Assembly: GCA_017482385.1 (NCBI GenBank)
Contig: JAFUNI010000014.1
Location: 1 to 64,000, forward strand
Source of the DNA: Oscillospiraceae bacterium
Lineage (GTDB): Bacteria; Bacillota; Clostridia; Oscillospirales; Oscillospiraceae
Length of the DNA stretch: 64,000 nt
Direction of reading: 5' to 3'
Position 1 is the stretch's first letter, and every line of letters begins with the position of its first letter. The position numbers and the translations under genes were made by a program. Below are positions 16,331-22,303 of the stretch, piece by piece. The notes beneath the pieces are model-generated. The model searched no databases. It saw only the letters and a program-made list of their open reading frames with translations, and had not been told where the DNA came from.

Positions 16331-17308
16331 TTACAAAGTGGCAGCCATAACTGCCTTGATGGTGTGCATCCGGTTCTCGGCCTCGTCGAAGACGATGGAC
16401 TGGGGGCCTTCAAACACCTCGTCGGTGACTTCCATGCAGTCGATGCCGAACTTCTCGCCCATTTCCTTGCCGATCTTGGTGTTCAGATCGTGGAAAGCGG
16501 GCAGACAGTGCATGAATTTGCACTGGGGACCTGCGATGTCCATCAGCTCCTGGGTCACCCGGTAAGCTGTCAGCTCCCGGATACGGTAGCCCCAAACCTC
16601 GGCAGGCTCACCCATGGACACCCAAACGTCGGTGTAGATCACGTGGGCGCCCTTGACGGCTTCCTTGGGATCTTCGATGAACTCCAGCTTTGCGCCGGTT
16701 TCCTTGGCGATTTCCTGGCAGGTGGCGATCAGCTCCTTGTTGGGGAAGTAGTCTGCAGGGGCGCAGGCCACGAAGTGCATACCCAGCTTGGCGCAGCCCA
16801 CCATGAGGGAGTTGCCCATATTGAAGCCTGCATCACCCATAAACACTAACTTTTTGCCCTTGAGCTCGCCGAAATGCTCCCGGATGGTGAGCATATCCGC
16901 CAAAATCTGGGTGGGGTGGAATTCGTTGGTCAGGCCATTCCAAACAGGCACGCCTGCGTACTTGGCCAGTTCTTCCACGATCTCCTGGCCGTAACCGCGG
17001 TACTCAATACCGTCGTACATACGGCCCAGCACCCGGGCGGTGTCGGCGATGGATTCCTTCTTGCCCATCTGAGAGCCGGAGGGTCCCAAATAGGTCACGG
17101 ACATACCCAGATCAGAGCCTGCAACCTCGAAGGCGCAGCGGGTACGGGTGGAGTCCTTTTCAAACAGGAGAACGATGTTCTTGCCCTCACACATTTTGTG
17201 GGGGATGCCGGCTTTTTTCTTGGCCTTCAGATCAGCAGCCAAATCGATCAGCTGCGTAATTTCTGCCGGGGTGTAGTCCAGCAGCTTCAGAAAATTTCTG
17301 CCTTTCAT
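16331..17308 (-). CDS. argF: Ornithine carbamoyltransferase
   Basis: 325 residues; makes citrulline from ornithine and carbamoyl phosphate in the cytoplasm. Carbamoyl-phosphate motif STRTR at residues 53-57 with CAFE, HPTQ in the middle, and the ornithine/catalytic HCLPAFH near 265 are all present. The start at 17308 (MKGRNF) is chosen because AAGGAG lies eight bases upstream; an in-frame upstream start at 17338 would overlap the ABC ATPase gene. The gene is the last of the - strand arginine cluster. Anabolic and catabolic forms cannot be told apart by sequence alone, but linkage to argG and argH favours biosynthesis. Confidence 0.95.
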
Positions 17309-17321
17309 CTTCGAATCTCCT

Positions 17322-18101
17322 TTACAGCACTTTTGCAAGGAAGGATTTCAGGCGCTCGCTTTGGGGGTTGCCAAAGAACTCAGCGGGGGTGTTTTCCTCG
17401 GCGATGACACCGTCATCGATGAAGATCACCCGGTTGGAGACTTCACGGGCAAAGCCCATTTCGTGGGTAACAACCACCATGGTCATACCCTGCTTGGCCA
17501 GCTCCTTCATAACATCCAGCACCTCGCCGACCATTTCCGGGTCAAGGGCGGAGGTGGGCTCGTCAAAGAGAATGACCTTGGGATTCATAGCTAAGGCCCG
17601 GACGATGGCCACACGCTGCTTCTGACCGCCGGAGATCTGAGAAGGATAGGCGGCTGCCTTGTCTTCCAGGCCGATGGCCTTCAGCAGCTCCATAGCCCGC
17701 TTTTCAGCCTCCGCCTTTACATCGGCAACGGTCTTACCCTGGGCCCGCAAGGCTTTTTTGTTCTTCTTGGCGATGGTAACAGGCGCGAGGGTGATATTGT
17801 CCAGCACGCACAGGTTGTTGAACAGATTAAACTGCTGGAACACCATGCCGATCTTTTGCCGGTGGATATTGATGTCCACCTTCATATCGGCCAGATCCTC
17901 GCCGTCGAACATAATAGAGCCGCCGGAGGGGTCTTCCAGGCAGTTGATGCAACGCAGGAAGGTGGATTTACCGCAGCCGGAAGGGCCGATGATCGCTACC
18001 ACATCGCCTTCGTAAACATCTAAGTCGATGCCCTTCAGAACTTGGTTGTCCCCAAACTGCTTGGTCAGATTTTTAACCGATAAAACTAACTGTTTTTCCA
18101 T
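17322..18101 (-). CDS. Polar amino-acid ABC transporter, ATP-binding subunit (GlnQ/ArtP type)
   Basis: About 259 residues with Walker [10 protein letters not shown] near residue 40, the Q-loop QFNLFNNL, signature [15 protein letters not shown], Walker [15 protein letters not shown] and the switch His in VVVTHEM. It powers the permease encoded upstream. Start is ATG at 18101; an in-frame GTG at 18113 overlaps the permease stop and is an alternative. Unlike many GlnQ proteins it has an insert rich in Lys/Ala ([21 protein letters not shown]) between the Q-loop and signature. It is followed 13 bases later by argF, so amino-acid import and arginine synthesis are co-expressed. Confidence 0.92.
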
Positions 18102-18102
18102 A

Positions 18103-18807
18103 TTATCTTTCACTCTTCTTCATTTTTGCTTCCAGCGCTCTCACGCCCCAGGAGATCAGCAGCACCATGATCAAATAGGTCAGTGCCAGCATCAGATAGG
18201 GCATGGTGTAATCGTAGGTGGGATCACCCAGCTGCTTGAAGGATTTGTAAAGGTCGGTCACCGCAATAAAGCTGACGATGGAGGTTTCCTTGATCAGCAC
18301 GATGAACTCGTTGCCCAAGGTGGGCAGGATGTTCTTGACGGCCTGGGGCACCACGATTTTCAGCATGGTGGTGGCGTAGGTTAGACCGACAGCTCTGCCG
18401 GCCTCCATTTGGCCGGGGTCTACGGATTGGATGCCGCTGCGCATAATCTCACTGACATAAGCGCCGCTGTTCAGACCGAACATAATAATGGCAACCGGAA
18501 CACCGGAGTCCACGGTGATGCCCAACGCAGGCAGCAGTACCCAGTAGCCGATCAGCAGCTGCACCACCATAGGTGTGCCCCGGAAGAGTTCAATATAGCA
18601 TACGCAGATCTTGTCCAAGATCCGGGGAAGCCTCTTATACTTGGGCATCACCCGGACAACGGCAATGATAGTACCGATCAAAATACCGATCAGCAAGCCG
18701 CCAACGGCGATCTGCACGGTGATCCACAGGCCGTTCAGCACATTTTCATATCCCTTTAGGGTGATGAACTGCTTGATAAATTCATTCCACATTTGAGTTA
18801 TAGTCAT
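18103..18807 (-). CDS. Polar amino-acid ABC transporter permease
   Basis: About 234 residues (start ATG at 18807; an in-frame TTG at 18819 is less likely). Around five membrane segments; the first is [20 protein letters not shown]. The EAA loop [20 protein letters not shown] near residue 140 is the contact with the ATPase. This is the His/Glu/Gln/Arg permease family. The gene is separated from the binding-protein gene upstream by a stable hairpin, and its stop touches the ATPase start. The substrate is probably a basic or arginine-related amino acid given the flanking arg genes, but that is inference. Confidence 0.92.
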
Positions 18808-18820
18808 ATTTTTAACCAAA

Positions 18821-18876: not shown

Positions 18877-19692
18877 TTACTTTGCGCAGATGACGTTCAG
18901 CATGTCAACAACAGTGCCGGCGGAATCCAGCTCGGTGTAGGCAGTGGGAACAACGCAGACGATGGACTCGGTGTAGTAGGGCTCGGAGAAGTTGATAACG
19001 CCCAGACGCTCGGTGGTGATGGTGATACCGGACATAGCGATGTCAACATTCTGCTTGCCAACAGCGCCCACAACAGCGTCGAACTCCATATCGTCGATAA
19101 CCAGCTCCAGACCCAGCTCGTCAGCGATCAGCTTAGCGATCTCCATGTCGATGCCGTAGAACTGATTGCCTTCCTTGTACTCCCAGGGAGCGAACTCAGC
19201 GTTGGTAGCAACAACCAGCTGCTCAGCTGCCTTGCTGCCGTCCTTGGTGCCGGAGGTCACGCCAACATACTTGGCCTCTTCGCCATTCATGTACTTTTCC
19301 TTGATGGCGTCGATCTCGGTAGCCTTGTCTTTCAGAATGTTGTCGATCTTGGTCTTCAGGTCAGCCTGGTTCTTGTCGATACCGATGCCGTAGTTCTCGC
19401 TGGACAGAGCGATCTCGATGATCTTCAGACCCTCGATCTCCTTAGCCAGGGACTTAGCGGTGGTCTTGTCAACGAACAGGTAATCAGCGTTGCCGTTGAT
19501 CATGTCCTTTGCAGCCAGTGCGAAGGTGTCATAGGAAGTGGTCTTGGTGTTGGCCAGCTTGTCAGCGTACATAAAGCTGGTGGTGCCCTTCTGGGCAGCG
19601 ATCTTAGCGCCGGCCTCGTCCTTAGCGCCGCAAGCAGCGAACAGGGACAGGCACAGAACCAGTGCCAGGGTCAATGCGATAAACTTTTTCAT
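18877..19692 (-). CDS. Amino-acid ABC transporter substrate-binding lipoprotein, apparently circularly permuted
   Basis: 271 residues with a lipoprotein signal peptide ending LFAAC. The domain order is inverted relative to the SBP_bac_3 family. Right after the signal comes what is normally the second lobe and C-terminal helices (AKIAAQKGTTS, DMINGNADYLFVD, ENYGIGIDKN, IDAIKEKYM). A Gly/Lys/Ser-rich linker around residues 135-160 follows. Then comes what is normally the mature N terminus and lobe 1 (LVVATNAEFAPWEY, DMEFDAVVGAV, VDIAMSGITIT, INFSEPYYTES). The protein ends shortly after the usual first crossover. All canonical pieces are present once. Its gene is first of the transporter genes, downstream of argH, and the permease and ATPase are normal. 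Confidence 0.85.
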   Translation of the reverse strand: MKKFIALTLALVLCLSLFAACGAKDEAGAKIAAQKGTTSFMYADKLANTKTTSYDTFALAAKDMINGNADYLFVDKTTAKSLAKEIEGLKIIEIALSSENYGIGIDKNQADLKTKIDNILKDKATEIDAIKEKYMNGEEAKYVGVTSGTKDGSKAAEQLVVATNAEFAPWEYKEGNQFYGIDMEIAKLIADELGLELVIDDMEFDAVVGAVGKQNVDIAMSGITITTERLGVINFSEPYYTESIVCVVPTAYTELDSAGTVVDMLNVICAK

Positions 19693-19710: not shown

Positions 19711-21081
19711 TTAAATAAATTTTTGAATGTACTTTATTTGCTCGTCGGCGGAAGCCTGATTGGTGCCGCCGGCGGAGATTCTGCTTTCCACACATCGTCG
19801 CAGGTCGATGGCTTCAAAAACATCGTCTTCAAACTGGGTGTCGAATTCTTTGTATTCTGCGATGGTCATTTCTTCCAGCACCTTGTTATTTGCGATACAG
19901 TAGGCCACGATCTGACCGGTAGTTTTATAAGCACTGCGGAAGGGCTCGCCCTTCTTGGTGAGATAGTCAGCCAGGTCGGTGGCATTGATGAAGCCCTTCT
20001 GTGCGGCCCGGAGCATATTCTCGGGCAGGGGCTTCATGGTGCGGATCATGGGCGGGAATACGGTTAAGCACTGCTTGACGGTGTCGATTGCGTCGAAGAT
20101 GGACTCCTTATCCTCCTGCATATCCTTGTTATATGCCAAGGGCAGGCCCTTCAGTACTGTGAGCATTCCCATGAGATCGCCGTAGACGCGGCCCGTTTTG
20201 CCTCGCACCAATTCGGCGATATCAGGGTTCTTCTTCTGGGGCATAATACTCGACCCGGTGGTGTAGCTGTCATCCAGCTCGATGAACTTGAATTCCCAGC
20301 TTGCCCAGAGGATGACCTCCTCGGAGAAACGGGACAAATGCATCATCACCGTGGCGAAGGCACTCAGCAGCTCCACGCAGAAGTCCCGGTCGGACACGCC
20401 GTCAATGCTGTTGAGGGTAATGCCGTCGAAGCCTAACTTGGCTGCTACCATTTCCCGGTTGGTGGGATAGGTAGTGCCGGCCAAGGCGCAAGAGCCGAGG
20501 GGAGAATAGTTCATCCGCTTCACCGCATCCTCGATGCGGCCAATGTCCCGGGTGAACATCATACCGTATGCCAACAGATGGTGGGCAAAGGTGATGGGCT
20601 GGGCTCTTTGCAGGTGGGTGTAACCGGGCATAATGGTGTTTTTATGCTGCTCTGCCTGGAAGAGAATGTCCTCCAGCAGACCCTTAAGCATTGCCACAAT
20701 GCCGGCTGCCTCTTCTTTTAAGTACAGACGCACATCCAGGGCAACCTGGTCGTTGCGGCTGCGGGCGGTGTGGAGCTTTTTGCCAATGTCGCCAATGCGC
20801 TTGGTGAGCTCCGCCTCCACAAACATATGGATATCTTCCGCGGTCATATCGATTGCCAGTTTGCCGCTTTCCAAATCCGCCAAGATCTTTTCCAGCTCAG
20901 CGATGATGGTGTCGGCATCAGCGGAGGGGATGATCCCCTGGGCTGAGAGCATTGCCGCGTGGGCCATAGAGCCCTTGATATCCTGCCGGAACATCCGGCA
21001 GTCAAAGTGAATGGAGGAGTTGAAGTCGTCGGCCTGTTGGTCCAGCGCCTTGCTGAACCGGCCTTCCCACATCTTAGCCAT
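19711..21081 (-). CDS. argH: Argininosuccinate lyase
   Basis: 456 residues, the usual length. Cleaves argininosuccinate to arginine and fumarate. The fumarase/aspartase superfamily signature [12 protein letters not shown] is at about residues 280-292, and the N-terminal MWEGRFSK and [12 protein letters not shown] motifs are present. Its ATG overlaps the argG stop by eight bases, so translation is coupled. It is followed 18 bases after its stop by the start of the binding-lipoprotein gene, which has its own AGGAGG site. Confidence 0.96.
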
Positions 21082-22303
21082 TGTTCAGCTTACCCTGTTC
21101 CATAAGAGCCTGGGTCTGGGTGGGCAGGCCCCACAGGTTGATAAAGCCGGTGGCCTGGGACTGATCGTAGTCGCTTTCGCCGAAGGTGCAGATCTCTTCG
21201 GAGTACAGGGAGAAGGGACTCTTCACGCCTGCGTTGATCATATTGCCCTTGTACAGCTTCAGCCGGACAGTACCGGTGACATTCTTCTGCGTCTCGGTCA
21301 CGAAAGCGGACAGAGCCTCACGCAGGGGGGTGTACCACTGGCCGTTGTACAAAAGCTCTGCAAAGCAAACGCTCAGCTCCTGCTTCTTGTGGGCGGTCAT
21401 CTTATCCAGGCAGATGGTCTCCAAAACTCTGTGAGCCTTGTACAGGATGGTGCCGCCGGGAGTCTCGTAAACGCCTCTGCACTTCATACCGACCAAACGG
21501 TTCTCAACAATGTCCAACAAACCGATGCCGTTCTTGCCGCCGATCTCGTTCAGCTTCCAGATCATATCGGTGGCGGACATCTTCTGACCGTCCAGAGCAA
21601 CGGGAACGCCCTTCTCAAAGTCGATGGTCACATAGGTGGGCTCGTCGGGAGCCAGCATGGGAGAAATGGTCATCTCCAGGAAGCCGGGCTTCTCGTACTG
21701 GGGCTCGTTCCAGGGATCTTCCAGGTCCAGGCCCTCGTGGCTCAAGTGCCACAGGTTCTTGTCCTTGGAGTAGTTGGTCTCCCGGTTGATCTTCAGAGGT
21801 ACGTTGTGAGCCTCGGCGTAGTCGATTTCTTCTTCACGGGACTTGATATCCCACTCACGCCAGGGAGCGATGATCTTCATATCGGGAGCGAAGCGCTTGA
21901 TAGCCAGCTCGAAACGAACCTGGTCGTTGCCCTTACCGGTGCAGCCGTGGGCGATAGCGTCAGCGCCCTCAGCCAAAGCGATCTCCACCAGAGCCTTAGC
22001 GATGATGGGACGGGCGAAGGCAGTACCCATCAGGTACTCTTCGTAGATGCAGCCGGCCTGCATGGAGGGAATGATGATCTCGTCAACCATAGCCTCGCTG
22101 AGGTCTGCAGCGTAGAACTTGTGAGCGCCGGTCTTGTAGGCCTTCTCTTCCAGGCCTTCCAGCTCGTCGGCCTGGCCAACGTTACCGGCCACAGCGATGA
22201 TGTAAGGATCGTTGTAGTTTTCCTTCAGCCAGGGAATGATGATGGAAGTGTCCAGGCCACCGGAGTAGGCCAAAACAATCTTCTTGATGTCTTTCTTATC
22301 CAT
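21074..22303 (-). CDS. argG: Argininosuccinate synthase
   Basis: 409 residues. Joins citrulline and aspartate using ATP. N-terminal P-loop-like AYSGGLDTS at residues 11-19 identifies the family, with the later citrulline/aspartate-binding segments (ACTGKGNDQ-like [14 protein letters not shown]) intact. The start at 22303 (MDKKD) follows AGGAGG by eight bases. It is the first gene of the arginine cluster, with a promoter and ArgR-like box 57-85 bases upstream. No argCJBD genes are in the window, so citrulline could come from imported ornithine via argF or from genes elsewhere. Confidence 0.96.

Follow-up and report, generated by a model that had tools for sequence, protein, structure and literature searches.

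A probable natural circular permutation in a lipid-anchored SBP_bac_3 protein of an Oscillospiraceae amino acid importer, with signs of repeated permutation in its family

Substrate-binding proteins (SBPs) of the SBP_bac_3 family include GlnH and ArtJ, which we take to be type II, or cluster F, proteins, and in canonical members the N and C ends both lie in lobe 1. Circular permutation is tolerated in this protein class in engineering, and Clifton et al. 2017 is said to describe engineered permutants of binding proteins for sensors. The crystal structure of TpMglB-2 (Tp0684) of Treponema pallidum, in turn, shows a type I sugar-binding protein with a circular permutation, classed as type Ic or cluster Bc; the protein binds glucose and changes shape (PMC4990184). 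In the part of that paper available here, tethering is suggested by its authors as possibly favouring the TpMglB-2 topology, and homologues are reported from Gram-positive, often gut, bacteria (PMC4990184). A literature search with most subscription journals outside its scope yielded, among the matches listed, no description of natural permutation in an SBP_bac_3 protein; in the available portions of two further papers, engineered permutation appears as a citation only (PMC7683729), or two of the searched terms occur unrelated to each other (PMC2912341).

Here, a gene in the window, that is, the whole stretch of 64,000 nucleotides of Oscillospiraceae DNA that was analysed, was compared with these systems (Table 1). 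With a probability of roughly 0.88, it encodes a natural, circularly permuted, lipid-anchored SBP of a polar amino acid ABC importer, an estimate that takes in the proposed fold, ligand and origin.

Table 1. Permuted SBP gene, its parts and its neighbours, in window coordinates
Feature	Position	Strand	Basis and remarks
Circularly permuted SBP_bac_3 lipoprotein gene	18877..19692	(-)	271 residues, ATG start; open reading frame, phmmer and doubled-profile alignment
Signal peptide to lipobox-like Cys21, residues 1-21	19630..19692	(-)	Sequence; several close relatives have LAAC
Normal second half, residues 24-135	19288..19623	(-)	Corresponds to 4prs_A 113-225; holds Q34, G36, T38, D75; covers most of lobe 2, then crossover 2 and the final passage back into lobe 1
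Polar linker from old C end to old N end, residues 136-157	19222..19287	(-)	phmmer alignment
Normal first half, residues 158-248	18949..19221	(-)	Pfam, phmmer, alignment; covers the N part of lobe 1 with crossover 1; holds N164, F167, F204, G222, T224, R229
C-terminal tail, residues 249-271 and stop	18877..18948	(-)	Read as equivalent of the DDL-helix loop of lobe 2; alignments by eye
Permease of polar amino acid ABC importer, normal order	18103..18819	(-)	TIGR01726, 76.3 bits (cut-off 42.2)
Importer ATPase, GlnQ-like	17322..18113	(-)	Best NCBIfam match GlnQ, 309 bits, below cut-off 379
argF, ornithine carbamoyltransferase	16331..17311	(-)	TIGR00658, 425.9 bits (cut-off 280.85)
argH, argininosuccinate lyase	19711..21081	(-)	TIGR00838, 631.5 bits (cut-off 279.5)
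argG, argininosuccinate synthase	21074..22303	(-)	NF001770, 564.8 bits (cut-off 334)

The original prediction held that the halves of this protein are swapped, with the second part directly after the signal peptide, that a polar linker of about 20 residues joins the normal C and N termini, that every expected block is present once, that the break lies in lobe 2, and that the neighbouring permease and ATPase are normal; on each of these points the alignments and domain matches agree with it. Among PDB sequences, phmmer aligned residues 154-248 of the window protein with residues 6-101 of 4prs_A (61.5 bits) and residues 24-135 with residues 113-225 (40.3 bits), each block appearing once, and the three matches listed as alignments (4prs, 6svf and 6ggv) all fall into two pieces in swapped order. 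When two copies of a canonical profile, derived from 43 canonical relatives, were set end to end, the window gene aligned to this doubled profile in a single stretch (positions 109-327 of 454, 181 bits), whereas the single canonical profile needs two pieces, of 61 and 123 bits. Between Cys21 and the first residue aligned with the canonical profile there are 3 residues, and the linker amounts to about 22. Beyond the matched N half the chain continues for 23 residues and stops at what corresponds to the 'DDL' helix, which places the break in lobe 2 by lobe limits that we take from GlnBP. Pfam SBP_bac_3 (PF00497) matched residues 159-251 over profile positions 1-93 of 132 (88.5 bits, cut-off 26.4); both halves of that domain are present, their usual order of lobe 1, lobe 2 and return to lobe 1 is swapped, and the protein is accordingly filed as a permuted variant of SBP_bac_3 rather than as an ordinary member. 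No other convincing match to either half was found in the 64 kb window (next best E 0.12), and the two other SBP_bac_3 genes of the genome are on other contigs. Residues 70-149, extending into the linker, also gave weak matches to RnfC (TIGR01945, E 4e-6, 25.6 bits, cut-off 246) and Complex1_51K (PF01512, E 1e-4, 22.6 bits, cut-off 31.2), both under the curated cut-offs and perhaps due to chance.

The permease and ATPase encoded alongside, both with normal domain matches, are the partners of a polar amino acid ABC importer, and the flanking genes belong to arginine synthesis. In the window genome, which is 95% complete, no match to ArgJ was found, and ArgC (36.7 bits, cut-off 233.6) and ArgB (32.5 bits, cut-off 151.3) scored far below their cut-offs; ArgJ is absent also from 4 of 14 control genomes. 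Given these low scores, the genome may need imported ornithine or citrulline, or may import arginine. The ligand is therefore likely, from the neighbouring genes, to be ornithine, citrulline or arginine, with which the importer would feed the adjacent arginine steps.

The search for orthologues with the same order, proposed as a check in the original prediction, was successful. The order recurs in six separately assembled contigs (L032-L037; here L denotes loci and G genomes), five of them at 87-99% identity and one at 67%, and two genomes of the same genus carry it at 88-89% identity; G014 and G051 probably correspond to the genomes from which L034 and L033 come, because those rows fell together in the classification of open reading frames. 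The gene order argG-argH-SBP-permease-ATPase-argF is found in L034, L035 and L036, and in L033 as far as the contig extends; argH adjoins the SBP gene in L003, L004 and L032, and the more distant L037 is without an arg gene. Permuted chains were sorted into frames A1, A2, B and C by the canonical position at which the chain starts, the window gene being of frame A2. A more distant relative of the same order is present in the isolate Ruminococcus bromii ATCC 27255 (36% identity), an A1 protein is joined in one chain with the permease in two R. bromii isolates, and G301, a genome of one contig, has one A1-type and one B-type gene. An assembly artefact might be suspected in a window drawn from a draft genome of 35 contigs, but the same order at 87-99% identity in separately assembled contigs speaks against misassembly, and the order is shared by more distant relatives in the two R. 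bromii isolates and the one-contig genome, making such an artefact extremely improbable.

The window gene is under purifying selection. For the whole gene, dN/dS was 0.10-0.19 in 6 comparisons; by segment, values were at most 0.22 for the C half, at most 0.29 for the N half except for 0.58 against L035 (where dS was 0.016), at most 0.40 for the linker and at most 0.58 for the tail, the highest of these being that against L003. The Pfam match to just 93 of 132 positions could be taken to mark a truncated or decaying remnant. Against this reading stand, however, the low dN/dS with selection on both halves, the kept gene cluster and the kept site residues, and it is rejected as very improbable. 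The real circular permutation, as opposed to truncation, that had been foreseen is thus upheld by same-order orthologues, site positions, selection and gene context.

Beyond the window gene, permutation is widespread and of more than one origin. A script classified 183 SBP-like open reading frames in 178 loci as 62 canonical, 48 A1, 22 A2, 36 B, 4 C, 10 arrays and 1 other; the 48 include L122, in truth a canonical tandem array, and after moving it to the arrays 109 of 171 single-domain frames are permuted, at four cut regions, with some loci represented twice among the 109. Calls were made by first aligned position, by which L111 was assigned to A1 yet sits in the A2 clade, and L169, with a first aligned position of 142, was assigned with uncertainty to C. 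Divergent and weakly matched rows are L161, L162, L163, L169, L173 and L174-L176, together with L135, L141 and L170-L172, which form one family. Permuted genes were confirmed, from up to 30 loci per search and 36 chosen regions, in at least 53 of 295 genomes of the order sample and at least 15 of 398 genomes of the phylum sample, the window genome being counted in both. Among the first set of 36 permuted loci, a permease is beside or fused to the SBP in 36 of 36 and an ATPase is present in 35 of 36, the contig piece of L041 ending before one. In two scanned single-domain permuted proteins, Pfam annotation shows a partial domain, covering 93 of 132 positions in an A2 and 96 of 132 in an A1 protein. 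At L166:3488-5270 (genome G323), permuted SBP genes of frames B and A2 lie adjacent, about 46 bases apart.

The median canonical position of the chain start is 101 for A1, 111 for A2, 133 for C and 174 for B, and all four cut regions are in lobe 2 by the GlnBP limits. Insertions totalling at least 8 residues occur among the 43 canonical sequences after positions 26, 100, 110, 128, 132 and 173, such that each median cut adjoins an indel-tolerant loop. No cut at the lobe 1 loop (position 26) was found among the 171 single-domain frames; since most later loci were picked by score to the permuted profile, these counts are not frequencies, and lobe 1 cuts are perhaps under-sampled. The cut region near position 133 was seen in L121, L125 and L128, of family f98 in the phylum sample, outside the class of the window.

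The putative alpha-amino acid site, as read from the sequence, is kept in the window protein, with R229 and D75 at what we take, after GlnBP, to be its Arg and Asp. The ten residues listed for the two halves in Table 1 occupy presumed ligand-contact positions, after GlnBP structures, and are invariant in 18 frame-A sequences. Following removal of near-duplicates (95 permuted and 58 canonical rows remaining), F or Y occupies the F167 position in 92 of 95 permuted rows and in 57 of the 58 canonical ones; R is found at the R229 position in 91 of 95 permuted and in 56 of 58 canonical rows, and D at the D75 position in 93 of 94 and in all 58, respectively. Looser positions in the permuted rows are those of N164 (N in 72/93), F204 (79/95), G222 (G in 77/95) and T224 (T in 78/95), and in the second half the counts are 84/94 for Q34, 83/95 for G36 and 86/95 for T38.

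For the SBP trees, domains were put in canonical order, giving 154 rows, and then 98 rows with a careful search from which long-branch rows (all of frame C and the family of L135) and near-duplicates had been taken out. Trees of the permease, the unpermuted neighbour, had 143 rows, no permease having been found for 11 of the 154, and then 101 rows with the careful search, thinned likewise, with 2 short rows out and 9 arrays in. The SBP and permease trees agree in that permuted and canonical genes are mixed and do not form two clades. The minimum number of changes between the two states is 8 in the 98-row SBP tree and 10 in the 101-row permease tree; a return to canonical order is a change too, so these figures leave the number of gains unfixed. 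The window gene lies inside an all-permuted clade of A2 and B genes (SBP 100/100; permease 96/95), and canonical genes surround a second B group and many A1 genes. One subclade, of Ruminococcus type and 16 rows in size, has 9 canonical and 7 A1 members (permease 100/99; SBP 97/95), its closest permuted and canonical pair being 77% identical (82% in the N half, 72% in the C half). On the SBP tree, descent of every permuted gene from a single old permutation was rejected: constraining all 63 permuted rows to one group gave p 0.00016 in the AU test, and constraining all 27 B rows to one group was likewise rejected (p 2.5e-5). These data suggest that permutation arose more than once in this protein family, at four places.

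Within the window clade, which holds frames A2 and B, the careful SBP tree shows the A2 genes (with L111) as one clade, whereas in the careful permease tree 16 B genes form one clade and A2 is a grade; L157, of frame B, is outermost in both. Derivation of frame A2 from frame B, as first read from the SBP trees, is unsupported by the careful permease tree.

A permuted order could feasibly also arise if the second half of one SBP gene were fused to the first half of a different one. Adjacent SBP genes do exist, as with the B-type and A2-type pair at L166 with its gap of about 46 bases, and the window protein is not equally far from canonical proteins in its two halves (51% and 33% identity to the nearest). 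When the two halves were used for separate trees, however, the window clade appeared in each (88 and 98*); this result speaks against later mixing and is still compatible with two parents at the root of the clade. Two further groups are each lost in one of the half-trees, the 16-row Ruminococcus group being missed by the C half and a 7-row B group by the N half, in trees of few columns. Since, moreover, the halves of L040 share their nearest canonical protein, L056, and tandem genes with near-identical units exist, a fusion of two different genes is held to be unlikely.

Permutation of a single gene by tandem duplication and loss of the ends is the most likely route, and we infer the deletion step. 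In this scheme, an SBP domain would be duplicated in frame and then lose sequence at both ends, more than once in the family and at four lobe 2 loops. The duplication and trimming that had been offered as an example in the original prediction gains weight from tandem SBP genes with units 80-94% identical and from arrays whose first piece is a C half and whose last is an N half. L126, an open frame of 528 residues, carries two entire SBP domains that are 80% identical and does not match a permease, and the two domains of L113 and L177, 89% and 94% identical, are joined to a permease; genes of this tandem kind resemble the intermediates through which duplication and trimming would pass. That a tandem chain holds the permuted order in its middle is illustrated by 6h30_A, named in its record as a glutamine ABC transporter permease and binding protein and presumably GlnP with two canonical substrate-binding domains in a row: the permuted profile matches it in one stretch (24-256 with chain 97-326), and it is the sole one-stretch best match among the best 60 of 101 PDB sequences.

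Long chains with a C half first and an N half as the last SBP piece were found in L118, L156, L168, L178, L073 and L082, with a Pfam permease, among those scanned, in L178, L082, L168 and L118. In the permease tree, four A1 genes fall together with six arrays, namely five C-half-first chains and L123 (98/88). The chain at L082:3119-6148 (1010 residues), from Nitrosomonas communis and thus an array outside Firmicutes, comprises a C half, two full SBP domains, an N half and a permease; that at L178:833-4270 (1146 residues) combines an SBP array, permease and ATPase, and looks like a whole importer in one polypeptide; that at L073:2297-5797 (1167 residues) has five SBP pieces, C half first, and no permease match in the chain.

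The distance from the lipobox Cys to the first aligned residue has a median of 15 in 54 canonical rows (range 1-48); in 86 permuted rows (range 1-46) the class medians run from 4 to 6, and the two ranges overlap. As the profile begins a few residues before the first strand, these lengths serve as comparisons and not as absolute distances. A lipobox was not found in 4 canonical and 9 permuted rows. For the linker between the old C and N ends, the median is 14-17 unaligned residues, depending on the class. Such lengths are in keeping with duplication and trimming, the linker having the look of a former tether.

As to the fold, we infer one two-lobed fold per chain. The chain would start near Cys21 with most of lobe 2 and then pass back to lobe 1, a linker of about 22 residues would join the old C and N ends, and lobe 1 would then be completed before the chain ends in lobe 2. 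The usual two-lobed trap is expected, in which R229 would hold the carboxylate of the ligand and D75 its amino group. The lipid anchor would presumably sit on lobe 2 instead of lobe 1, by a very short tether. A permuted chain might alternatively be incomplete alone, with halves exchanged between two chains, and arrays in which C half, N half, C half and N half follow one another could in principle fold in two ways. Such a domain swap is nevertheless judged distinctly unlikely, since the linkers of median 14-17 residues bridge two ends that canonical proteins keep in the one lobe, lobe 1, and single-domain permuted frames outnumber arrays among those fetched (109 against 11).

To our knowledge, a protein family with natural circular permutation usually shows a single old event. 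In the present family, canonical and permuted forms that reach 77% identity coexist with tandem intermediates and several cut points, and the duplication-and-trimming route, the rules by which a hinge-bending protein can be opened, and anchoring by lobe 2 as against lobe 1 thereby become testable. It seems reasonably probable that one domain family of gut Firmicutes has been permuted repeatedly, by independent events at four lobe 2 cuts with a change of frame within a clade and perhaps returns to the canonical order, by way of tandem-gene intermediates, and that the shift of the anchor or permease fusion from lobe 1 to lobe 2 may have been selected.

Compared with GlnH/ArtJ-type SBP_bac_3 proteins, the window protein has the same sequence blocks, site positions, lipoprotein signal and partner permease and ATPase, but its halves are reversed, its chain ends in lobe 2 and its lipid tether is short. 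In the tandem substrate-binding domains of GlnP (6h30_A), the C half of domain 1 and the N half of domain 2 together resemble the permuted order; that chain nonetheless has two canonical domains in a row and no permuted single domain. Engineered sensor permutants are man-made, whereas the permutation in the window protein is natural. Like the window protein, TpMglB-2 is, in the available part of its description, a natural circularly permuted and tethered binding protein of an ABC importer. It differs in having a type I, cluster B fold, glucose as ligand and a single topology permuted in the N lobe, whereas the window family is, by sequence, SBP_bac_3, with lobe 2 cuts at four places and more than one origin; of the features that define type Ic or cluster Bc, the window protein accordingly shares the permuted SBP and, judged by its sequence and its lobe 2 cut, not the type I fold cut in the N lobe. 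As far as that part of the description extends, TpMglB-2 is the nearest precedent for the window protein.
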